Shown here one piece after another: positions 4,621 through 61,975 of a DNA stretch of 64,000 bases. Origin of the DNA: Pseudobdellovibrionaceae bacterium (lineage in GTDB: Bacteria > Bdellovibrionota > Bdellovibrionia > Bdellovibrionales > UBA1609); assembly GCA_947444305.1 (NCBI GenBank), contig CANEZP010000003.1, positions 248,001-312,000 on the forward strand, written 5' to 3'. Each line of letters opens with the position of its first letter. Positions within the stretch are counted from its first letter, which is position 1. A program made the translations under genes and the position numbers. Under the pieces are notes generated by a model. It was not told where the DNA came from. It searched no databases and worked only from the letters and a program-made list of their open reading frames with translations.

Positions 4621-5811
4621 TTAGTACTTCCCTTGCGAGGGGTGACGTTTCCACTGGTCAAGCCGGATCATCGAGTCGCGCTCGAGCCGGTAAAAGCCGT
4701 GGGGAGCTTGATTACTGGTCGTCATGAAGATGGTGACGTCGTACTTATTCTGCGGAAAAAGCCGGTAAATCATATGGCGGAAGAAATTCAGCTGGTGCAA
4801 GGCCTGGCTTCTGGACAGGAAGCTCATATCGATAATGTTGGTCAGGGAAATTGTGTAGCTACGGTACCCTAGCCGGTCCCCGTGGTCTTTCACTTTGCGC
4901 CAGAAAATTTCCGAGACGTAGTCGGTATGGGCGAGTTTCGCGGTCGCGTATAAGTTCCGGAAACGAGAGTAGGCTTCTTGCGAAGACAAAAATGAATCGT
5001 CGGGTCTAGCTTCGCCGGAAAACCCCTCTTCCTCCCTAAGCTGGGGCAAGTAGCGATCCGCGAAAGCCTGATTCAGTTCGCCTGCGCTATCGATATCATT
5101 GCCGCGGAGGACGCCGAACTCGTTGGGTTTCCGTTTTGAAGTTAAAGCGAAGTAATATTCGCGGACGGCAAGAAGCTCTTCACGACTGACGTTCTGCCGT
5201 TGCATCCACTCGTTTATATTTTTGACGCCGGCCTTGAAATTTTCCGCAGTCCGTTTCTTGTCCATCAGAAATTGTCCGACTTCAAACAGACTCGAGTTTC
5301 TCATTTCGACGGGAATCGGTATTCCCGAAATAAGCGAGAAGAATTCCGCGGGCGTTTGCGCGAGCCTTAGAATGGGCCGAAGGATAAAGTTCTGCGCGAT
5401 GAGCGGACCCGCGACGTGGTCCCCGATGATCAATTCTTTTGCGTGTTTGCGGGAAGCGATATCCCAGGCCGAATTCGTACCGAAACCGATGACCAGATCC
5501 GTGGGGGAGTCATCCCAAGGCAGGTTGTGCCAGTCGGCTTCGTTGGAGGCCGGGTAACCACCGTCGGCGTCCGTCCTCATTACGCCGTCATTGTAGAAAA
5601 GCGTTGGGGAAGTGAAGAACGCCGCGGCCAATGGCCCGTTCTGCGGATTGATCTGCTTGCGTGCGGTTAAAAGCGCGCGGCACATCTCCGTAACAGGATT
5701 TTGTTTTTCGCGCGCATTGTGGGCGAGGGCGGGTGCGCCCAACGTAAACGTGCCGAACGTAAACGTAAGGAGAAGAACGTATAGAAAGCGCAATTTCATT
5801 TGGGCGAGCAT
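4621..5811 (-). CDS. Exported protein, tandem paralogue family, copy 1
   Basis: 396 residues with a signal peptide of about 30 residues ending near PALAHN. It is clearly homologous to the next two genes. All three share FFTSP, FYNDGV/I, YPASNE or similar, DWH, PW-SPTD, GFGTNSAWD, AQNFILR, a long helical middle, SRFRNLYA-like segments, GYRSYTISLTNIID, and PHGFYR near the C-terminus. The GFGTNSAWD loop followed some residues later by an acidic residue (IIGDH) recalls a Rossmann-type nucleotide- or SAM-binding start, but I cannot name the enzyme. It might belong to the LIC_10091-type family; this is a weak recollection only. Likely periplasmic. It is the last of the three copies in transcription order. 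Confidence 0.85.
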   Translation of the reverse strand: MLAQMKLRFLYVLLLTFTFGTFTLGAPALAHNAREKQNPVTEMCRALLTARKQINPQNGPLAAAFFTSPTLFYNDGVMRTDADGGYPASNEADWHNLPWDDSPTDLVIGFGTNSAWDIASRKHAKELIIGDHVAGPLIAQNFILRPILRLAQTPAEFFSLISGIPIPVEMRNSSLFEVGQFLMDKKRTAENFKAGVKNINEWMQRQNVSREELLAVREYYFALTSKRKPNEFGVLRGNDIDSAGELNQAFADRYLPQLREEEGFSGEARPDDSFLSSQEAYSRFRNLYATAKLAHTDYVSEIFWRKVKDHGDRLGYRSYTISLTNIIDMSFLSRSQALHQLNFFRHMIYRLFPQNKYDVTIFMTTSNQAPHGFYRLERDSMIRLDQWKRHPSQGKY

Positions 5812-5872
5812 TTACGCTGTCGTGCATCAACCAACGGGGCGCCGTCAAGATTTTCGCGGGTTCCGCTAAATT

Positions 5873-7042
5873 TTACCGTTCGGCCGGTTCGGAGTAGCGG
5901 ATCCACTGTTCAGGCTTGATGACCGTGTCCCGCGCGATCCGGTAAAAGCCGTGTGGCATGCGATGACTCGTGGTCATGAAGAGGGTGACGTCGTATTCGT
6001 CCTTCGGAAAGAGCCGGTAGATCATCTGCCGGAAAAGATTGAGCTGGTGCATGGCGTGGCTCTTCGGCGAGAAAGTCGTGTCGATGATGTTGGTCAATGA
6101 AATGGTGTAGCTGCGATAACCTTTCTGGTCGCCGTAACGTTTCACCTTGCGATAAAATTCTTCCGAAGCGAAGTCCGTGTGAGCGTACTTCGCGTTTTCG
6201 TATAAAGCTTTGAAACGCGAGTAGGCTTCTTGCGATGACAAAAAAGAATCCTCGGGGTGAGTCGGCCCCTCGAAGCCGTCTTCCATTCTCAATTGAGGCA
6301 AGTAGCGCTGAGCGAAGAACCCTTGCAGATCACCGACCTGTTCAATGCCCGGCGCTCGGAGTACACCGGCCCGGTTGGGTGTCGGATTTGAAGCCAGCGT
6401 GACGTAATATCCGGCGAGGGCACGAAACTCGTTGCCGCTAATGCCCTGATTGAGCATCCACTTCAAAAGGCCTTCGACGTCGTCCCTATAATTATCAGAC
6501 TCTAAACCAACGAGGTATTCGCCCATTTCAAATAGACTCGCGTTTTTGCGGTCTTCGGAAAGCGGCGCTCCCGCGAGTACAGCCAAGAATTCGGCCGGCG
6601 TTTGGGCGAGCCGGAGGATCGGGCGCAAGATATAATTTTGCGCGATCAACGGGGCCGCGATGTGGTCCGCGATGATCAAGTCTTTTGCGCGCTTGCGGGC
6701 GGCAATATCCCAAGCCGAATTCGAACCGAAGCCGATCACCATATCCGTCGGCGAAGTGTCCCAAGGTGTGAGATGCCAGTCGTATTCATTCGAAGCCGGA
6801 AAACCCCCGTTGTACTCGGTTCGCATTACGCCGTCGTTATAGAAAAGCGCGGGGGAGGTGAAAAACGATCTCGCGAGCGGCCCGTTTTGCGGACCGATCT
6901 GCCGAAACGCGGTCAAAAGTGCGCGGCAAGTTTCGACCAGGGAGCGGGATTTTTCGCGCGAGCCGAGGCCGTAAGCCGGTGCGGTTAACACGAACGTCAG
7001 GAGAAAGATCACTAAGAAGCGCGATTTAAATTGTGCGAGCAT
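5873..7042 (-). CDS. Exported protein, tandem paralogue family, copy 2
   Basis: 389 residues, closest to copy 1. Both begin MLAQ, followed by a hydrophobic signal sequence (RFLVIFLLTFVLTAPA) and then the same order of motifs: GPLARSFFTSPALFYNDGV, DWHLTPWDTSPTD, GFGSNSAWDIA, LIIADH, LAQTPAEF, a helical middle, and SYTISLTNIID. The last 60 residues hold LFMTTSHRMPHGFYRI. The conserved MLAQ supports this start in both copies. Gaps of 61 bases to copy 1 and 45 bases to copy 3 suggest one transcript. The middle third (residues about 165-250) is the least conserved. The function is not recognised. Confidence 0.85.
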   Translation of the reverse strand: MLAQFKSRFLVIFLLTFVLTAPAYGLGSREKSRSLVETCRALLTAFRQIGPQNGPLARSFFTSPALFYNDGVMRTEYNGGFPASNEYDWHLTPWDTSPTDMVIGFGSNSAWDIAARKRAKDLIIADHIAAPLIAQNYILRPILRLAQTPAEFLAVLAGAPLSEDRKNASLFEMGEYLVGLESDNYRDDVEGLLKWMLNQGISGNEFRALAGYYVTLASNPTPNRAGVLRAPGIEQVGDLQGFFAQRYLPQLRMEDGFEGPTHPEDSFLSSQEAYSRFKALYENAKYAHTDFASEEFYRKVKRYGDQKGYRSYTISLTNIIDTTFSPKSHAMHQLNLFRQMIYRLFPKDEYDVTLFMTTSHRMPHGFYRIARDTVIKPEQWIRYSEPAER

Positions 7043-7087
7043 TGACGAGTTCGTGCATCGGCCACCGCCTTGCCGTCAAGGGGCTTT

Positions 7088-8233
7088 TCATCGTTCGTCG
7101 CTACGTATCCACTCGTCTTCATTGATGGGAGTGTCCCGCTCGAAGCGGAGAAAACCGTGCGGGTTGCGATCGTTGGTCGTGAGGAAGATGACGACCTCGT
7201 AAGCGGGGGCAGGAAAGATTTGATTAATCATTGCCCGGTACCGCCCGAGAGACTCGATCGCTTCGCTTTTGCTATCGGCGTTCGCGTCTAAAATATTTGA
7301 AAGCGAAAACGTGTAGCGGCGATACCCGCGCTCATCGCCGTGGCTTTTTAGCGAACGGTAAAAGTCTTCCGAGAGATAATCGGTCTGCGCGTAGAGACTG
7401 GAAGCGTACAGAGAACGAAAGCGAGTGAACGCGGCGGGGGAGGCCAGGAACGAATCTTTGGTCCTTGCCGTGGCGGGGACGAAGCCGGTGCTCTTACGAT
7501 ACTGGGGCAAATAACGTGACACAAAGAACTGAATGATAGGGCCATTGAGATGTGCATTCTTACTTCGCAGAACGCCGAATTGATCTAAAGGTGAAGGTGT
7601 AATGAGCGCCACGTAATATTCGGCGACGGCCTGAAGCTCATCGCTGCTCGCGCCCCCGGTCATCATCAGATTAAGTGCTTCGCGCATACCCATGGCGATC
7701 TCGTCGATCGTCCGGTCGGTTTGATATTTCATAAGATATTTTCCGAACTGCGTGAGGGTATCGCCGCGGTGATCACCGGGAAGATCGATACCGGCTAACA
7801 GTGCTAGAAAGTGCGCGGGAGTTTCCGCGAAGCGAAGGATCGTGCGAAGGATAAAATTTTGCGCGATGAGCGGGCCGGCCGCGTGATCGGCGATCATCAA
7901 GAGCTTCGCGTCTTTCCGCAAAGCAAGATCCCAAGCCGAGTTTGTACCGAAGCCGACGAGTACGTCGGTGGGCGAAGTGTCCCAAGGCGTTTTGTGCCAA
8001 TCGTACTCGTTCGAAGCGTAGAACGGGTAGGCGGTCTGCCTATAAATGCCGTCGTTGAAAAATAAGTTCGGTGAACTGAAAAACGCGGGCGCGAGCGGAC
8101 CGTTGCCGCGGCCCAACTGTTCGGGCGATGCGAGCACCGAACTGCAAATGGCCGAGCCGGCTCGCGATTGGTGCGCGATCGCGGGCCCGGAAATTGCCAG
8201 GGCAACGAGGTAGATAAATAAGCGAGTGATCAT
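7088..8233 (-). CDS. Exported protein, tandem paralogue family, copy 3
   Basis: 381 residues and the most divergent of the triplet. The signal peptide MITRLFIYLVALAISGPAIA is followed by the shared motifs GPLAPAFFSSPNLFFNDGI, DWHKTPWDTSPTD, GFGTNSAWDLA, LMIADH, a helical centre, YRRYTFSLSNILD and a C-terminal block with LTTNDRNPHGFLRFERD. It lies first in transcription order. The region upstream (8234-8310) is short and shows no terminator, so read-through from the propeller-protein gene is possible. The conserved aromatic, Asp and Gly positions across all three copies suggest one fold and a retained activity or ligand. No function can be named. Confidence 0.83.
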   Translation of the reverse strand: MITRLFIYLVALAISGPAIAHQSRAGSAICSSVLASPEQLGRGNGPLAPAFFSSPNLFFNDGIYRQTAYPFYASNEYDWHKTPWDTSPTDVLVGFGTNSAWDLALRKDAKLLMIADHAAGPLIAQNFILRTILRFAETPAHFLALLAGIDLPGDHRGDTLTQFGKYLMKYQTDRTIDEIAMGMREALNLMMTGGASSDELQAVAEYYVALITPSPLDQFGVLRSKNAHLNGPIIQFFVSRYLPQYRKSTGFVPATARTKDSFLASPAAFTRFRSLYASSLYAQTDYLSEDFYRSLKSHGDERGYRRYTFSLSNILDANADSKSEAIESLGRYRAMINQIFPAPAYEVVIFLTTNDRNPHGFLRFERDTPINEDEWIRSDER

Positions 8234-30137: not shown

Positions 30138-30968
30138 ATGCGCAAAGCTTGTATTGTTTTCTTGGCGGTGACAATTCTCGGTATCCCGGTGGGACCCGCG
30201 GTGTTGGCCAATGTGATCGGCGCGGATGACCGCGTGCTGATAACCGCCGCGTACACCAACATGGGAATGGACACGGTAGATATGCTCCGTATCCGCCAAT
30301 CTACAGGCTTTGTTTATTGTCCCGGTACCGTTCACCAAAATCCGGCCCGCACTTCGGGTGCCGTCATTAACGACAACCGTGTTGTCGTGACCAACGCCCA
30401 CAGCTTCATCGACGAATCGGGCCGCCCGCGCGAACCTTTGGATCAATGTTATTTCGTAAGCCAAGGTGTCGTTCCCGAAATCCGCTATTTCGATTTTAAC
30501 GCCGGCTTCGTGCATCCCGAAAAATGGTGGGCGAATAAATACGTGAACGACTGGGCCGTCGTTCGCTTGAAACAACCTTTGATGTACGGTCGCGCCTTCC
30601 CGATCGCGCCCGCATCGGATTTGACCGAAGGCCGCTCGTTCATCATGGTCTCGGCCAAACCCCGCCGCGTGTGGGCGCCCTTCCCGATGGAAGAACCGGT
30701 CGTCCAGACCTGCGGCGTACGCAAGATCTTCCCGGCCTCTTTGGAACATAAAACGGTTTTTTACAGCGACTGTGACGTCAGCCCCGGCGCCTCCGGCTCG
30801 GTCGGTCTGGTTTCGATCAACGGACGCCTAAACGCCTTCAGCGTGGTCAGCGGCAGCGGCCCCACCTCAATGGACGGCGCCCCTTACAGCGAATCTACGG
30901 AAAGCCACTCCTTCCACACCGCCTACCGCGACGACCTCCTCACGGCGATTCTGCGGTTGAGTAAGTAG
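30138..30968 (+). CDS. Secreted trypsin-like serine protease, copy 1
   Basis: 276 residues with signal peptide MRKACIVFLAVTILGIPVGP...LA. The mature chain begins NVIGADDR. The family triad is visible: His in VVVTNAHSFID (about residue 94), Asp in VNDWAVVRL (about 139) and Ser in CDVSPGASGS (about 216). YSDCDVSPGASGSVG is the oxyanion-hole region. Cysteines at FVYCPG, DQCYFV, QTCGV and SDCD could form two disulfides. It is the most divergent of four paralogues within 6 kb, and unlike them has core-like GC. Secreted proteases suit a predatory or scavenging life, but this is inference. The activity itself is well supported. Confidence 0.85.
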   Translation: MRKACIVFLAVTILGIPVGPAVLANVIGADDRVLITAAYTNMGMDTVDMLRIRQSTGFVYCPGTVHQNPARTSGAVINDNRVVVTNAHSFIDESGRPREPLDQCYFVSQGVVPEIRYFDFNAGFVHPEKWWANKYVNDWAVVRLKQPLMYGRAFPIAPASDLTEGRSFIMVSAKPRRVWAPFPMEEPVVQTCGVRKIFPASLEHKTVFYSDCDVSPGASGSVGLVSINGRLNAFSVVSGSGPTSMDGAPYSESTESHSFHTAYRDDLLTAILRLSK

Positions 30969-30974
30969 CTTTTA

Positions 30975-31841
30975 TTATTTCAGTGTGTCAGCGCAGATCG
31001 AGCGAATCTTCGCCTCGAACGTAGCAGGGGACTGGATAACAGCGTCCATTAGAAGCAGCTCATTTTGTAAACGTGCGATCGGGCTGTCGCTACGTAAGGC
31101 GTTCGCACCAAGCGCTATCGCGTAGAGCCGAACAGCATCCCGGTTTACTTCATCACGCATTGGAGCCAGAGCTTCGATGGCGAGGTCCGCGGCACGGCGC
31201 CGGTCAAATTCTTCAAGGCGCTCTCGCAGCTTGCAGAGGTGGTCCGAAATAAATTTATGTCTCGGATGTTGAGAGCCGGTCACCAAAGCTTCTATTCGCG
31301 CGAGCGAGGACTTTGCGACACCAATTTCGGGTGCGAGATACTCGGTTGAGCGGGGCACCGGCGTCCGCTTCTTGAGCCCGCGATCTACAATTTGTGTATC
31401 CGCAACGAAGAAATTTTTAAATGTAATAGCGACCGGTGACGATCCTAAGAGACAAACCAGGTCTAACGCATCGATCGACGTCGCGCTTGATGGAAGCGGA
31501 AAATCAACGAGTGCAAAAACGATTTCGGTACCGGTGTCAAAGCCGACCAGGAGAGTATCGAACACCTCGAACCCACAAACCCAGGCGGCTTTTCCATTGA
31601 GGTAAAATCCACCATCGGCGGCGCTCGCCTTAATCCCCGCGCCCGAGGGTTGTGCAAGATGAGTCGTGGCTAACCCACAAAGTTTTTCGTTGGCTTTGAA
31701 GGAGTCGAAGGCGGGACCATATGTGCGAAGCCAATCCGGAAGCGTGCCGAGTCTTTCCACGGCGGCGAGATGCTGCCAGTACAAAAAAGACAGTGTGATA
31801 GACGACCCAAAAAGCCTTTCGAGATGTTCGTTCTCGAAAGA
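30975..31841 (-). pseudogene. N-terminally truncated acyl-CoA dehydrogenase-like remnant
   Basis: The frame upstream of about 31841 is only the reverse reading of the neighbouring reductase. From there on, a recognisable acyl-CoA dehydrogenase-type sequence appears: FGSSITLSFLYWQHLAAVER, LCGLATTHLAQPSGAGIKAS, FYLNGKAAWVCGF, and a C-terminal helical half ending SICADTLK. About 289 residues remain. The N-terminal helical domain of roughly 80-100 residues is missing, and no start codon lies at the junction. The reductase loses its C-terminus at the same point, so a deletion fused two genes. I treat this as decayed. It ends six bases from the convergent protease gene. Confidence 0.75.
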
Positions 31842-32515
31842 TTGGGGAGGGTGGCGGCCCATACGATGGTCTCCGCACCTTTGGAAACTTCTCTCTTCGC
31901 CGCGGTTCCGCCCATGCGAGTTTTGACCCAACCGGGGCACACCGAATTGATCAACACGTTCTTGCCTTTTAATTCATCGGCAAAAATTCTCGTGAGCGCA
32001 TTGAGTGAAACCTTCGATAAGCGGTACGCGGGCCGGCCGCCGTTCATATCCGAAAGTTGGCCATCGCCGCTCGACACGTTAACCACGCGGCCATAATTAT
32101 TTTTGATCATCGCGGGCACAAAGGCTTGGCAAAGCTGGAGCGGCCCTAAGGTATTTGTCGCAAAAGTTTTCACGATGTTCGAAGCTTTAGCCTTGAAAAC
32201 CGATCGGTCGCCGAGACCATCAGCCGCCGGCATCGGATCAAGAAAAATAGCGGCGTTATTCACGAGCACATCGATCTGCCCGAAACGGGAGTGAAGGGAC
32301 GTGGCTAATTTATCGATTTGTTCCTGGTCGGAAACATCCAATTCGGCGGCTTCCGCCGTCATGCCCTGCGCGGTTAGCTCGGCCGCGGCTTTTTTCCCAA
32401 GATCGATATCACGGGCCCCAACCAAAACGGTGTACCCAAGCGCGCCAAGCTGGCGGCAAACTTCAAATCCAATCCCACGATTCCCACCGGTCACCAAAGC
32501 TACTTTAGATTTCAT
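31670..32515 (-). CDS. Short-chain dehydrogenase/reductase with replaced C-terminus
   Basis: Starts at the ATG of 32513-32515 (AAGGA upstream). The cofactor motif TGGNRGIG lies at residues 9-16, NNAA at about 85, the catalytic Ser in VNVSSGD and YxxxK in AYRLSK at about 165, then CPGWVKTRMGG. The family usually ends about 20 residues past ETIVWAATLP with a Gly/Phe-rich tail. Here, after ATLPNLS (about 31838), the frame runs into the acyl-CoA dehydrogenase remnant read in the wrong frame until 31670. The NADPH-binding and catalytic residues are intact, so it might still work. Resembles carbonyl reductase-type enzymes. The last 54 residues are not native. Confidence 0.7.
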   Translation of the reverse strand: MKSKVALVTGGNRGIGFEVCRQLGALGYTVLVGARDIDLGKKAAAELTAQGMTAEAAELDVSDQEQIDKLATSLHSRFGQIDVLVNNAAIFLDPMPAADGLGDRSVFKAKASNIVKTFATNTLGPLQLCQAFVPAMIKNNYGRVVNVSSGDGQLSDMNGGRPAYRLSKVSLNALTRIFADELKGKNVLINSVCPGWVKTRMGGTAAKREVSKGAETIVWAATLPNLSRTNISKGFLGRLSHCLFCTGSISPPWKDSARFRIGFAHMVPPSTPSKPTKNFVG

Positions 32516-32679
32516 TAATCTGATTATCCTTAATAGAAGCCATTCGGTCACCCCTTAGCTTTGGTTTCCGGCGGGTGCCCGGTGTGGGTTCATTACTGTC
32601 CAAAGATTAAACAGAACGTGTTGCTGTTCCCGCCCAGAAGGGAGTAGAAGCAGGCTCGGATTCTGCTAATAGGTTGGGT

Positions 32680-33606
32680 ATGCCAGTCGAACATTATTTT
32701 ACCAAGTTTTTATTAGTTGCCAGTTTCGCGGTTTCGGCCTGGGCGCAGGCAAGTGTAATTGGTAAAGATGATCGGCAAATTCTATCTAAGAATCTCCAAG
32801 TTGTGAAATTCTCCCTGGCCGAAAGGGAACAAGCGATGAGATGCACCGGGTTCATCTATTGTCCTCAGGGTACCGAAGGGCCAGCGATGCAATCAGCCGG
32901 TGCAATTTGTCCACTGGGTTACCGGGATTCTAAACTTTCGTGCGATGCGGATCGATTAGCTACGGCTGGTCACATGTTTGTAAATGAAAAAACTAACCAA
33001 ATGATTCCGGCATTAGAACTTTGTGAGTTTAGGAGCTATCGCGGACACGTTTCGAAACTAATTATCGATGATATAAAAGTGCTAAGTTCCGAGCCTGCGT
33101 ATAATCCTCGGATTAATTTACGAGCGGATAAATTAGTCGTGCGACTAGAGAAGCCGATTATAAACTGTAACCCTTATGATCTCGCCGATTTGATCGGACC
33201 TCTTCCCGCCGGTACCGAAGTCATCGCGCTTACTCATGCCCAGCGCGATCAGAACAGGAGGAGATTCACCGGCAGCGAGCCGTTAGCGTTCCCATGTAAA
33301 ATAATGAAATCTTTCACTCCTAACGGTGGCGGCCCATCGGCGTATTACAGCGATTGTGATGTGAACGGCGTCGGTTCGGGCGGCTTCTTGCTCGCGAGAT
33401 CAAGCTCTCAATCACTCGTTGTGACGAGCATAATTGGCGGATCGGGAGATGAAATACAAAATGGTCTTCCATATAACGAAGAAACAAAAAATAGGACAGT
33501 TTCCACAGGTGTCGATGCGGATTTTCTTGAGCTAGCCGCAGCCCCGGGAATTCGAGTAGAGCTCAGATATTTCCCAGGCCAACGAGTGCAGCAGCCCCTT
33601 CAATGA
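32680..33606 (+). CDS. Secreted trypsin-like serine protease, copy 2
   Basis: 308 residues from the ATG at 32680; a TTG two codons earlier is less likely. Signal peptide FTKFLLVASFAVSAWAQA, then SVIGKDDRQILSKNL. His in LATAGHMFVNEK, Asp in LRADKLVVRLEKP and Ser in VNGVGSGGFLL mark the catalytic triad. Cysteine pairs include MRCTG/YCPQG, AICP, LSCDADR, ELCEF, NCNPYD, FPCKI and SDCD, so several disulfides are likely. It is followed 16 bases later by copy 3. Base composition is visibly more AT-rich than the neighbouring core genes. Confidence 0.85.
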   Translation: MPVEHYFTKFLLVASFAVSAWAQASVIGKDDRQILSKNLQVVKFSLAEREQAMRCTGFIYCPQGTEGPAMQSAGAICPLGYRDSKLSCDADRLATAGHMFVNEKTNQMIPALELCEFRSYRGHVSKLIIDDIKVLSSEPAYNPRINLRADKLVVRLEKPIINCNPYDLADLIGPLPAGTEVIALTHAQRDQNRRRFTGSEPLAFPCKIMKSFTPNGGGPSAYYSDCDVNGVGSGGFLLARSSSQSLVVTSIIGGSGDEIQNGLPYNEETKNRTVSTGVDADFLELAAAPGIRVELRYFPGQRVQQPLQ

Positions 33607-33622
33607 AAATGGAAGATGCAAA

Positions 33623-34516
33623 ATGAAATCAACAAATTTTTTATCTCTGACGTTGCTGCTTGTGTCGGGACTGGCATTTGCCGGTGTAATCGGCGAGGAC
33701 GACCGGAAGCTACTTTCTAAAAGCACCGTGGGATTAAGTCTTACCGAACACGAGCAAGCGATGCGCTGCACGGGACACGTATATTGCCCTGGTGGGAGAG
33801 GTTCAGCAAAGATGCAATCCGCTGGGGCAATTTGTGCCCCGGGTGACCGATCAGCCCAAGGAATCTGCGCGGCGGACCGTTTAGCAACCGTACGACACTT
33901 ATTTGTCGATGAAAAAACACACAGGTTTATTCCTAAACTTGAGAAGTGTGAGTTTCAGAACTACCGTGGACATGTTTCGACGCTTGTCACCGGCGACATC
34001 ACCGTCGATGTACCTTCGATTGAAAACAATAATCCACACAAGGCGGGCCGCGCGGACAAAGTGGTCGTTCGACTCCTAAAACCGATCCCGGGTTGTGATC
34101 CGTACGATCTTCCTGACATTACAGCACCGCCTTCGGAGAACTCGGATCTCATTGCTCTCACCCATGTCCAAGAAGACCATGAAGGAATTTACGACGGAAA
34201 AGAACCCTTAGCTTACCCCTGCCAGGTTACCCGTGTATTCACGAGCTTGGACGGTAACCCTGCGTTGTTCTATAGCAATTGCGATGCAACGGGCTTGGCG
34301 TCTGGAGGATTTAACCTTACACGCAATAGAGATAATAGATTGGCCGTATCGGGAATGTTTTTGAGAGCGGGTGGAGTTCATAAGAACGGATGGCCTTATA
34401 GCGAGGCAACCGATGGTACGAAGCATTTCACCTTATCGATAAGCACGGACGGGGCTTTCTTGCGCATGGCAAGGCATCCTGGGGAACCGTCGAGCGTTAA
34501 TAAACTCGAAAAGTAA
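33623..34516 (+). CDS. Secreted trypsin-like serine protease, copy 3
   Basis: 297 residues. Signal peptide MKSTNFLSLTLLLVSGLAFA and mature start GVIGEDDRKLLSK. Triad: His in LATVRHLFVDEK, Asp in GRADKVVVRLLKP, Ser in CDATGLASGGFNL. The usual Gly two residues before the Ser is Leu here (GLASGG instead of GxSGG with Gly-Asp-Ser), so the oxyanion hole or activity may differ. The cysteine pattern matches copies 2 and 4. The ribosome site is GGA about 11 bases upstream. It is probably co-transcribed with copy 2 and shares its low GC. Still likely to be a secreted protease, but of the four the most suspect as a pseudoenzyme. Confidence 0.8.
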   Translation: MKSTNFLSLTLLLVSGLAFAGVIGEDDRKLLSKSTVGLSLTEHEQAMRCTGHVYCPGGRGSAKMQSAGAICAPGDRSAQGICAADRLATVRHLFVDEKTHRFIPKLEKCEFQNYRGHVSTLVTGDITVDVPSIENNNPHKAGRADKVVVRLLKPIPGCDPYDLPDITAPPSENSDLIALTHVQEDHEGIYDGKEPLAYPCQVTRVFTSLDGNPALFYSNCDATGLASGGFNLTRNRDNRLAVSGMFLRAGGVHKNGWPYSEATDGTKHFTLSISTDGAFLRMARHPGEPSSVNKLEK

Positions 34517-54067: not shown

Positions 54068-55912
54068 TTAGCGTGGGGTAGTGGTTTCTCGAACGCCCTC
54101 GCCACCATTGGTCGTAGTGCCTCCAGGAACTGGATTTGCCAACGCACGGGTTTCCGGAGCAATAGGATCGGCAAGAAACTTCTCGCGATCCGATTCTGTT
54201 AGCTGTCCGATGGAGTGCAGGAACTCAACCGCAGTCTTATTTAATTCTGGATTGATAGGGTCATTGCTCCCGCCTTGCGATTCATAGCATTGAACAATGT
54301 TTTCGGCTGCAGTAACTAATCCGCCGTAGGTCTCGCCTAAAGTTTTGGCGGCTTCTTTGCCACCAACGCCGTTCGATTTTTCCCGCTTCAGATTCAGATA
54401 TGCTCTTAAATTCTCAATACGTTTTTGCTCATCGTTAAGTTCTTGTTGAGAATCCGCGTACTCTGTAGCTAGAGCCTGGTTTTTTGTTGCCAGTTGCTTC
54501 TGAGCAGTTGCTACTTCGGCCTGAAGTTGCTGATGCTGAGTGGCCGCGTTCTGTTGTGCTTGAATCATTTCCTCGTTTGCTTCGCGTGCACTTCGACACA
54601 TTTCAGTTTCGCCCGACGGCACTCCGGCCTGGGTCGCGGGAGCGGCACAGCCGCTTTTACTCATAACTTGATTAATACTATCTTCTAGGCGTCGCCGGTC
54701 CTGCCGAGCGACCTGGATCGCTGAGTCAATCCCACGGACGGTAGATTCGTAGATATTTCGAGCGTTGGTTTTAGCCTCTCTGGTAGGTCGACTTTTCAGG
54801 CAACGGGTATAATAAACGTCCGCAACTTTTTCCCAAGCCGCTCGACTACTCACACCCACGCTGTTCATCATTTTATTGAAATCGCCGGAAGGTTTGCCCT
54901 TCGCGATGGATGCCATTTTAGCAGTCTGACGTGCGGCCACCTGCTGAGATGCCGAAGCGTGACAGTTGAGCTCAATCCCAGTTTTCGCTTCGGATAATTT
55001 TACCTCGGCATCTACCTTATTTAGTTCATACTGCCTAATTTGCGCGTCAACCTTATCCATTTCGCCGCGTGCCTGCGCCATCTTAGCAACCGCTTGTTGC
55101 TCTTCACCGGATTTTTTCTTTTTTATTTCTAATACTTCTTTTGCAAATTCTTTCTGCAACTCGGCCGATTTTCTTTGTGCTTCGTTTTGTTTCTCGGCCG
55201 CTTTGTCTTGTGCCTCGGTCCCTTTATTCATCAGTTCGGGCATCTTCTTCTTTGCGTCCTTAACCCGTTCTTGCGCTTTCTCAAGTTGTTTTTCATAACG
55301 TTCGGTATCGTCCGGATCCTCGTGTGGGCAAAGCTCCAAGCGTTTTTTGGCCTGGCCGATGTCAATCATGCCTGCACTTTGCGTGGTGGCGGAAAGACGA
55401 TCGGAACGACCGCCTTCGCTGCAACGATATTTGGCGCTTGCGTCTTCAGAAACTCCTTTGTTCAAACACTGGCAGCGATTTTTGCTCCACGAACAAGCTA
55501 TGGAACCCTCTTTACCCGAGTCTGTCGGATTGTCGCTGTCCAGGCCTGCATTGCTACACGCTCCCCCGAACTTCCCTTTTGCTTTGGTGAATTCACCTTT
55601 CGCATCTCGGCAAGTTTCCCCCGAAGCGGTACCTCCGCCCTTCATATCGCGACGGCATTTGACCCAGTTGTTATAAGCTTGATCGTAAGATTTTTTAAGC
55701 GCCGTTCGATTAGAATCAGTTGCGTGCTTTAATGCTTCCGTGGTGGAGAGTTTGCTAGCCGTTTCGCCGTCGCAATCGGTCTCGCGAGCATTTCCAAGTG
55801 CTAATGCCGCAGGCGTGGCTGGTGCTTGCGCATAAGCAGGAGAGGTTAAGGCGCCGAACGCGGCGAACGCTACGGCCACTTTGAAAACAACCGTCTCAAT
55901 CTTAGACATCAT
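54068..55912 (-). CDS. Exported coiled-coil protein of unknown function
   Basis: 614 residues from the ATG at 55912, with AAGGAGGG about seven bases upstream. Signal peptide VAVAFAAFGALTSPAYAQA. A Cys-rich N-terminal part (about 45-190: VKCRRDMKGGG, ETCRDAKGEF, CSNAG, CSWSKNRCQCLN, RCSEGGR) is followed by long charged helices (ERYEKQLEKAQERVKDAKKK and AEKQNEAQRKSAELQKEFAK) and a second coiled coil near 460-530. The chain ends in Gly/Thr-rich TTTNGGEGVRETTTPR. Codon use is more AT-rich than that of PBP1A next door. It is reminiscent of secreted adhesins or surface fibres, but no family is recognised. Confidence 0.78.
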   Translation of the reverse strand: MMSKIETVVFKVAVAFAAFGALTSPAYAQAPATPAALALGNARETDCDGETASKLSTTEALKHATDSNRTALKKSYDQAYNNWVKCRRDMKGGGTASGETCRDAKGEFTKAKGKFGGACSNAGLDSDNPTDSGKEGSIACSWSKNRCQCLNKGVSEDASAKYRCSEGGRSDRLSATTQSAGMIDIGQAKKRLELCPHEDPDDTERYEKQLEKAQERVKDAKKKMPELMNKGTEAQDKAAEKQNEAQRKSAELQKEFAKEVLEIKKKKSGEEQQAVAKMAQARGEMDKVDAQIRQYELNKVDAEVKLSEAKTGIELNCHASASQQVAARQTAKMASIAKGKPSGDFNKMMNSVGVSSRAAWEKVADVYYTRCLKSRPTREAKTNARNIYESTVRGIDSAIQVARQDRRRLEDSINQVMSKSGCAAPATQAGVPSGETEMCRSAREANEEMIQAQQNAATQHQQLQAEVATAQKQLATKNQALATEYADSQQELNDEQKRIENLRAYLNLKREKSNGVGGKEAAKTLGETYGGLVTAAENIVQCYESQGGSNDPINPELNKTAVEFLHSIGQLTESDREKFLADPIAPETRALANPVPGGTTTNGGEGVRETTTPR

Positions 55913-59998: not shown

Positions 59999-60063
59999 AC
60001 CCGCCGGATTTGTCAGTACGCGATTCCTCCCCTTCGTCGCACAATGATTGAAATGGGGGATTC

Positions 60064-60552
60064 ATGAAAAACGTATTGTTGGTGTTGTTAGCGGTCGTAG
60101 GTTTTCAAGCGTCGGCAGGTTCGACGGATATGCATTTGCAATTAGACGGCATCGAATCCTACGACGAGAAAGCCATCCGCGGCCCCTTCGAAATTTTAGC
60201 CTGGAGCTGGGGCACGTCGGCCCCGAGCGGTTCGCCCGAGAAAGGTGAATCGGCGAGTGGCGTGCAAGATCTTTCGCTGACCAAATACATTGGTTCGGAA
60301 TCACCGCACATTATGAAGCTGATCTCGATGCGCAAAACGATCAAGCGGGTCACGCTGACGATTACGAATTCAAACAAGATGATCATCATCCTGAAAGACG
60401 CTCGGTTCACGCACCAGTCGATGGGTGGTTCCGGCGGCGAAGACCGTTTGACCGAGAACGTGACGTTGTCATTTAGCGAAATTGAGTTCCAAACTTCATT
60501 CAAGGTCGAAGGCAAAGATCAATTGTCGTCGGCCGTCATTCAAGGTCAGTAA
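60064..60552 (+). CDS. Hcp-like protein with signal peptide
   Basis: 162 residues. MKNVLLVLLAVVGFQASAGS is a clear Sec signal peptide. The mature part matches the Hcp/type VI tube family: MHLQLDGIE, FEILAWSWGTSAPSG, LSLTKYIGSESPHIMKLIS, RVTLTITNSNKM, FTHQSMGGSGGEDRLTENVT, LSFSEIEFQT. Ordinary Hcp carries no signal peptide because it is pushed through the T6SS from the cytoplasm. No other T6SS genes are near. It is followed 23 bases later by a second Hcp copy. Possibly a surface or periplasmic assembly using the Hcp ring fold. The fold assignment is good; the location is inferred from the signal. Confidence 0.82.
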   Translation: MKNVLLVLLAVVGFQASAGSTDMHLQLDGIESYDEKAIRGPFEILAWSWGTSAPSGSPEKGESASGVQDLSLTKYIGSESPHIMKLISMRKTIKRVTLTITNSNKMIIILKDARFTHQSMGGSGGEDRLTENVTLSFSEIEFQTSFKVEGKDQLSSAVIQGQ

Positions 60553-60575
60553 TCTAAATCTTAGCGGGAGTTTTT

Positions 60576-60995
60576 ATGAAGCAACGCAACGGCACCACGA
60601 TGACTTTGTTACTAGAGTACCTTGATGAGCAAGAGCCGAAATCTTTGAAGCTCCCGATCGATATCTTAGCCTGGAGCTGGGGTAGTGCGGGACCCAAAGC
60701 TCTGCAGGAACTTTCACTAACTAAGTATATCGGCGTGGAAAGCCCTCATATAATGAAGATGATTTCTACCCAGCAGAAAATCAAGCAAGTCACCATGACG
60801 GCCGAAAACGAGAACACCATCACGCTTGTTTTAAAAAATGCTTACTTCACCCACCAGAGCATGGGTGGTTCGGGCGGCGAAGAACGTTTGACCGAAAACG
60901 TGACGCTCGCGTTTTCAGAAGTTGAAATGAGAACGAGCTTCGTGATTTCCGAAGTGACTCAAACGAGTAAAGCCAGCGTCAGCAACGAAGAATAA
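60576..60995 (+). CDS. Hcp-like protein without signal peptide
   Basis: 139 residues, ATG at 60576 after GGGAG. Close to the previous gene from LLLEYLD onwards: IDILAWSWGSAGPKALQELS, LTKYIGVESPHIMKMISTQQ, FTHQSMGGSGGEERLTENVT, LAFSEVEMRTSF. It lacks the export signal, so one copy seems exported and the other cytoplasmic. A short Ser-rich tail ends it. They probably arose by tandem duplication. A T6SS tube role requires baseplate genes not seen in this window. Confidence 0.82.
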   Translation: MKQRNGTTMTLLLEYLDEQEPKSLKLPIDILAWSWGSAGPKALQELSLTKYIGVESPHIMKMISTQQKIKQVTMTAENENTITLVLKNAYFTHQSMGGSGGEERLTENVTLAFSEVEMRTSFVISEVTQTSKASVSNEE

Positions 60996-61081: not shown

Positions 61082-61975
61082 TTGAAGGATTTCGTTTGGC
61101 GCACGGGCGCGATTGCATTGTTTGGTCTGACCTTCATTCTACCTTTCCAAAACTGCGCAAAACTTTCTTCGCTAAAAGGCGGAGAAGCTTCCTCGAGCAG
61201 CCACGGCGTTCCGCACATCATGCGAACTTCGTCGGTTGAATCTTTGAACACCGACATCAACTTCCGCGTGTTTGACGAACGACTTTCGACCTCGGCGCTA
61301 TTCAATTGGACTTTCAAGTTGGATAACGTCGCTTCCGGCTGCGCGCCGAAAACGGCCTCAAACGCGTCGACTTTTATTTTGAATTGTTCGGCTCCCGGCA
61401 GCTTAAAGGTGACGGTTGAGATTACCGACGCCGGCGTGACGCAAAGCTTGTCGTACTCGACAATCTTGCAGACTCCGTCGAGCGGGAACGAAATCCCGAT
61501 GGACGTCGTTTTCGAAATTCCGAACGGCACCGGCGATGCTTCTTGGAATACCGCCGCGACGCGGGTTGAAACATTCGTCGGTCAAAAGCTGAAACTTAAG
61601 AACATGGATTCGGGCAATCACCAGCTACACACGAACGGCAAACCCTGCCCGCACGGGAACTCGATCGCGCCGGGTGCCACGGTGGATTGCGTGATCTCGC
61701 AGGCTTACAATCCGACCGCCGACGGTACGGTTTACGATCACGACGACGGAACGACCGCGCGTTTCAACCTCATCGCTTATAACGGTGCGACGCTTTACGC
61801 ACAAAATTGTGCCGGCTGCCATACGGCGCTTGCGACGAGCACCGTTCCGATGGCGAAGGTTTCGTCGATTCTCGCCGCCCGCTCGAGTAAGCCCGCCATG
61901 ATGGGCAACGCCGCTGTACAGGCCTTGACCCGCCGGCAAATCGAAGCGATCTCCTACGCCCTCGGCGCCCGCTAG
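61082..61975 (+). CDS. FQNC lipoprotein-like protein with cupredoxin and cytochrome c-type domains
   Basis: 297 residues from a TTG at 61082, with GGGGG six bases upstream; no suitable ATG exists. The N-terminal membrane segment (GAIALFGLTFILPFQNC) ends in FQNC as in the 16 kb protein. A beta-sandwich-like region (45-140) follows. Then a cupredoxin-like stretch at about 155-225 has VGQKLKLKNMDSGNHQLHTN, CPHGNSIAPG and VYDHDDGT (possible copper ligands His, Cys, His). A C-terminal cytochrome c-type segment carries the heme motif CAGCH near 247 and an axial Met later. Suggests an electron-transfer protein tethered to a membrane. Confidence 0.78.
   Translation: MKDFVWRTGAIALFGLTFILPFQNCAKLSSLKGGEASSSSHGVPHIMRTSSVESLNTDINFRVFDERLSTSALFNWTFKLDNVASGCAPKTASNASTFILNCSAPGSLKVTVEITDAGVTQSLSYSTILQTPSSGNEIPMDVVFEIPNGTGDASWNTAATRVETFVGQKLKLKNMDSGNHQLHTNGKPCPHGNSIAPGATVDCVISQAYNPTADGTVYDHDDGTTARFNLIAYNGATLYAQNCAGCHTALATSTVPMAKVSSILAARSSKPAMMGNAAVQALTRRQIEAISYALGAR

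Follow-up and report, generated by a model that had tools for sequence, protein, structure and literature searches.

Two adjacent Hcp-fold genes, here called copy 1 and copy 2, lie on the plus strand near the end of the window (the whole stretch of DNA analysed, 64,000 nucleotides), each with a Shine-Dalgarno-like site ahead of it and with a gene for a cytochrome-c-domain protein next in line. The tandem Hcp-like reading frames reported in a preliminary description of this DNA were both recovered at exactly the coordinates given there, which are listed with the other features in Table 1. The sole Pfam match of either protein was PF05638 (T6SS_HCP; E-value 5.4e-12 for copy 1 and 8.3e-08 for copy 2), with both copies above the curated cut-off of 23.5 bits. 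A similarity of copy 2 to HAD hydrolases (E 0.087) was under the cut-off and was discarded as a chance match. The top PDB sequence match of both was P. aeruginosa Hcp1 (1y12; 4e-20 for copy 1 and 4e-15 for copy 2), the best matches among the nearest homologues in genome_contigs were about 40% identical to the window Hcps, and the two copies share 53-55% identity. AlphaFold2 models of the copies gave the whole Hcp fold in both cases, with Z of about 15-17 to some fifteen solved Hcps and a beta-barrel of eight to nine strands plus one main helix. An alignment including the window copies contained 24 invariant Hcp core columns. The family matches and the complete modelled fold agree with the earlier statement that both copies keep the Hcp core. 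A scan for sigma-70 promoters and terminators around both genes returned nothing exceeding chance.

Table 1. Features of the Hcp-fold gene pair and its surroundings (positions in the window)
Feature	Position	Strand	Details
Shine-Dalgarno-like GGGGGA, gene 1	60055..60060	+	from sequence
Hcp-fold gene 1 (copy 1)	60064..60552	+	162 aa precursor, 144 aa mature; PF05638 46.6 bits; AlphaFold2 pLDDT 79, Z 15 to Hcp structures
Predicted Sec signal peptide of copy 1, MKNVLLVLLAVVGFQASA	60064..60117	+	predicted cleavage before G19; hydropathy 3.3, n-region K, AxA site
Loop L2,3, copy 1	60214..60264	+	18 aa between landmarks; the nine closest T6SS Hcps compared have 21 aa; pLDDT <50 there
Tight turn replacing loop L4,5, copy 1	60367..60375	+	7 aa between landmarks; 10-20 in the other Hcps compared, with one exception
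Shine-Dalgarno-like GGGAG, gene 2	60566..60570	+	inside the 23-nt intergenic gap; from sequence
Hcp-fold gene 2 (copy 2)	60576..60995	+	139 aa, without signal peptide; PF05638 33 bits; AlphaFold2 pLDDT 83, Z up to 17.0
Deleted or short loop L2,3, copy 2	60684..60704	+	8 aa between landmarks; from alignment
Tight turn replacing loop L4,5, copy 2	60807..60815	+	7 aa between landmarks
Cytochrome-c-domain protein gene	61082..61975	+	PF00034 25.1 bits, cut-off 21.3; N-terminus hydrophobic, perhaps a lipoprotein; gene 3 of the lineage-specific insertion

Copy 1 begins with MKNVLLVLLAVVGFQASA/GST; this N-terminus combines a lysine in the n-region, a 10-residue window with a mean hydropathy of 3.3 and an A-x-A site, and is called a Sec signal peptide by a rule based on hydropathy and cleavage site, not by SignalP. 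Its signal-like score was matched by 98 of 200,000 base shuffles of the same stretch and at 9 of the 1,626 ATGs of the window, genuine secreted genes being among these nine. The start of the mature protein (GSTDMHLQ...) aligns with that of ordinary Hcps (MAVDMFIK...), so that it lines up with the canonical Met1 and the signal peptide is an addition ahead of the normal Hcp start. The frame of copy 2 opens just six codons upstream of its own ATG, leaving no room for a signal peptide. The preliminary description had assigned a Sec signal peptide to the first copy and none to the second, and both assignments stand. This exact pair has been seen in a single genome. The next in-frame ATG of copy 1, at codon 23 (M23), might suggest a mis-called start, with the signal peptide being translated intergenic DNA, but we consider this barely credible: GGGGGA precedes codon 1 and no comparable Shine-Dalgarno-like site precedes M23, such a signal-like score is seldom reached by chance, and initiation at M23 would lose residues that align to the canonical Hcp N-terminus.

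Other secreted-looking proteins are encoded elsewhere in the window. Three consecutive ORFs, 381-396 aa long and alike at their starts, lie on the minus strand at 4621-8233, and three ORFs with a V-I-G-x-D-D-R motif past the signal peptide lie on the plus strand at 30138-34516; two of each group were tested and had no Pfam match. A predicted exported, coiled-coil-like protein of 614 aa (54068-55912, minus strand) also had no Pfam match.

T6SS genes are many and clustered. None was found near the pair, as the preliminary description had said, and genome-wide profile searches for TssC (PF05943), TssB (PF05591), TssK (PF05936) and VgrG/GPD (PF05954) gave no match in this draft genome (4.17 Mb, 29 contigs, 97.46% complete), while an E. 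coli control was positive in every marker search. In the reverse control, TssC was present in all eight tested T6SS-type genomes that hold the nearest homologues. The genome therefore offers a functional T6SS tube subunit neither the sheath TssB/TssC nor the baseplate TssK nor the spike VgrG, and copy 1 carries a signal peptide where a functional tube subunit is cytoplasmic and without one; copy 2 has none. That a T6SS or another contractile system was overlooked in an unassembled part or through divergence, with these proteins as its tube, seems very improbable to us. The draft is incomplete and the search covered four markers, TssB, TssC, TssK and VgrG, but T6SS genes are numerous and clustered, all four markers are absent, and Sec export would take copy 1 out of the cytoplasm, the site of tube building.

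In EAEC Hcp1, loop L4,5 together with the C-terminus forms the ring-to-ring contacts (PMC3925092); in B. pseudomallei Hcp1 such contacts come from loop L2,3, mutation of which stops hexamers from stacking into dodecamers (PMC4650826). The window Hcps lack the full-length L2,3, L4,5 and C-terminus of a T6SS tube subunit: both loops are shortened to the extents given in Table 1, where the hairpin is assigned to L4,5 via the alignment and loop lengths depend on it, and the C-terminal tails of both copies extend 21-22 aa past the landmark, where the nine closest T6SS Hcps compared have tails of 28-30 aa. Trimmed stacking elements on an intact ring body make a free ring more probable than a long tube, and the simplest reading of the sequences is a ring that would not polymerise into a T6SS-type tube. 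Reuse as a "ring or tube" had been proposed before; the three shortened stacking elements favour the ring and make the tube less likely.

Of the 47 genomes in the family, 1 has the pair, and no close orthologues were found in the remaining 46. Four relatives, among them a member of the same genus, have a patatin-like lipoprotein gene directly after tlyA; in the window genome, hcp1, hcp2 and the cytochrome-c-domain gene sit between these two. In the tree the copies are sisters with 100/100 support, within a clade of T6SS Hcps and exported Hcps, which makes duplication in place most likely. Between the copies dN was 0.50 and dS 1.87 (NG86), a dN/dS of about 0.27, which indicates purifying selection on both. 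A mobile origin was not borne out: no relative was found on viral contigs, and the plasmid matches were Hcps of <40% identity, most of them carrying the annotation of a T6SS tube protein.

Beyond the family, PF05638 scored over the cut-off in 3 of 369 genomes of the same phylum (probably Bdellovibrionota, judging by gene content), the window genome included; two further Hcp-like matches (G304, G329) had internal stops, were under the cut-off and were rejected. All three Hcp-bearing genomes hold at least one signal-peptide Hcp and none holds TssC. The other two (G031, G367) have single exported Hcps, which fall with Verrucomicrobiota proteins in a wholly exported clade (support 100/97). Among Verrucomicrobiota, Hcp occurred in 33 of 388 genomes. 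By the same hydropathy and cleavage-site rule, signal-peptide Hcps were present in 18 of these, 17 without TssC, and the remaining 15 had only Hcps without a signal peptide, 13 with TssC, TssC being the single T6SS marker used there. The association between signal peptide and TssC in Verrucomicrobiota and the three genomes of the window's phylum gave a Fisher p of about 6e-7, to be taken as a guide only since related genomes are not independent. Counted by ORF in the same set, signal-peptide Hcps numbered 42 in TssC-negative and 3 in TssC-positive genomes, and Hcps without a signal peptide 6 and 17, respectively. The sole TssC-positive genome with signal-peptide Hcps (G372) encodes a plain Hcp and separate signal-peptide Hcps. 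No signal peptide was found among 80 further T6SS-type Hcps from genome_contigs. On the Hcp tree, the labels exported and T6SS require at least three changes, on starred branches, indicating that Hcp export was gained or lost several times. Copy 1 belongs to the exported class, defined by a Sec signal peptide ahead of the Hcp domain and by the absence of TssC from the genome; copy 2, with 139 aa and no signal peptide, does not fit the exported second tandem Hcp, which often has a C-terminal extension. The absence of TssB, TssC, TssK and VgrG together with the signal-peptide/no-TssC association in independent genomes gives good support to the earlier suggestion that Hcp is reused here outside a T6SS. 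Separately, genome G611, which gave no TssC match, has at locus L140 two tandem Hcp genes that both lack a signal peptide, possibly a non-exported orphan pair.

Occurrence in 1 of 47 family genomes and trimmed loops might also mark an orphan Hcp gained by horizontal transfer and now decaying or without a selected function, its signal peptide being incidental. We hold this to be a distinctly unlikely account, as both frames are intact and have Shine-Dalgarno-like sites, the dN/dS between the copies is low, the 24 core columns are invariant and signal-peptide Hcps recur in TssC-negative genomes.

Many exported Hcps of Verrucomicrobiota are paired, a short first protein preceding a longer second one and most having their own signal peptide. 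TSP3, Ig-like and cadherin domains are typical of surface proteins, and three of four scanned second members carry TSP3 repeats or Ig-like and cadherin domains C-terminal to the Hcp domain. The L2,3 loop of the second member was shorter in 12 and longer in 1 of 16 aligned pairs (sign test p 0.003), the pairs not all being independent, and the window pair has the same difference (18 residues in copy 1 and 8 in copy 2). At five of these tandem exported pairs (L129, L133, L138, L136, L131), a methyltransferase-like gene for about 490-550 aa lies directly downstream; the three such neighbours tested had MTS and DUF7059/DUF7782-like matches, and at these Verrucomicrobiota loci the exported Hcp pair and the methyltransferase-like gene form a conserved three-gene unit.

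The common loop difference raises the question of whether copies 1 and 2 build one extracytoplasmic assembly, as an exported hetero-ring or a capped short stack in which the trimmed copy 2 would be the end ring or an alternate subunit. The Verrucomicrobiota pairs, common as they are, may assemble likewise, their long second members bear surface-type domains, and a solved Bacteroides fragilis Hcp2-Hcp3 heterohexamer (9vne) is among the structure matches of both window copies. We nevertheless rate a joint assembly as unlikely for the window pair, as copy 2 has neither a signal peptide nor a C-terminal extension, folded partners are not co-carried by Sec, and the loop comparison depends on the alignment and on pairs that are partly non-independent.

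Taking these results together, we think it fairly probable that the pair is an Hcp-fold ring protein that has departed from the T6SS, with copy 1 an exported free ring and copy 2 most likely cytoplasmic. Judged by sequence, a T6SS-type Hcp gene gained a Sec signal peptide and was, most likely, duplicated in place; the pair now lies with the cytochrome-c-domain gene in a conserved block of housekeeping genes, and the genome has no TssB, TssC, TssK or VgrG. The ring state, localisation, cargo and function of these proteins we infer from sequence. Copy 1 would be exported by Sec, cleaved after A18 and assembled as a free ring, either periplasmic or on the far side of the outer membrane. Hcp rings bind effectors as a scaffold or chaperone, and the exported ring of copy 1 may likewise be a cargo-binding scaffold or chaperone. 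Copy 2 would most likely be a cytoplasmic, sub-functionalised ring, and could be a partner of copy 1 only if exported by a route invisible in the sequence. The preliminary description had envisaged a periplasmic or surface assembly in an invasive lifestyle: the former is the natural reading of the copy 1 signal peptide but, as a joint assembly, conflicts with the lack of an export signal on copy 2, and the invasive lifestyle found no support.

A wider and more tentative proposal, which we regard as possible but less than even in likelihood, is that Sec-exported Hcp rings, often in tandem as a stacking-competent and a loop-trimmed member, constitute an extracytoplasmic ring machine independent of the T6SS, which evolved repeatedly in T6SS-less bacteria. 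Hcp serves as a hallmark of type VI secretion, and the recurrence of exported Hcps in machine-less genomes means that Hcp alone is no marker of a T6SS. The protein family is known and its use outside the T6SS is new; we found no account of Sec-exported Hcps in T6SS-less genomes, or of tandem pairs, in the open-access literature. Exported Hcps seem to represent a second, so far unnoticed use of a familiar protein, in which the tail-tube fold would have been recruited more than once for an extracytoplasmic job, and they provide an evolutionary test of the capabilities of the Hcp ring in the absence of sheath, baseplate and spike.

Compared with known systems, the window Hcps share with T6SS Hcps the Pfam family, the full fold and the DLSLTKY and GGSG..DRLTENVTL motifs, with 33-36% identity to a solved structure and about 40% to the nearest homologues. 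They differ in the signal peptide of copy 1, the shorter L4,5 and C-terminal tail of both copies, the nearly deleted L2,3 of copy 2 and the absence of TssB, TssC, TssK and VgrG from the genome. Phage-tail and extracellular contractile injection tube proteins show a distant fold likeness (Z about 8.5-10, against 15-17 for Hcp), and no tail gene cluster lies beside the window pair. Hcp domains with a PEP-CTERM sorting signal were spotted in, then removed from, a large Hcp survey and were not analysed there (PMC8262886), so databases do contain exported Hcps; they too are Hcp domains on exported proteins, whereas the window proteins have no PEP-CTERM match in Pfam. The exported Hcps of G031 and G367 resemble copy 1 in their Sec signal peptide and in the absence of TssC from their genomes, but they are single genes in a separate clade with untrimmed loops. 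The exported Verrucomicrobiota Hcps share with the window pair the Sec signal peptide, the tandem order, the absence of TssC and, usually, the shorter L2,3 of the second member; their pairs are not sister to the window pair in the tree, and their second members usually have the signal peptide and long C-terminal extension that copy 2 lacks.
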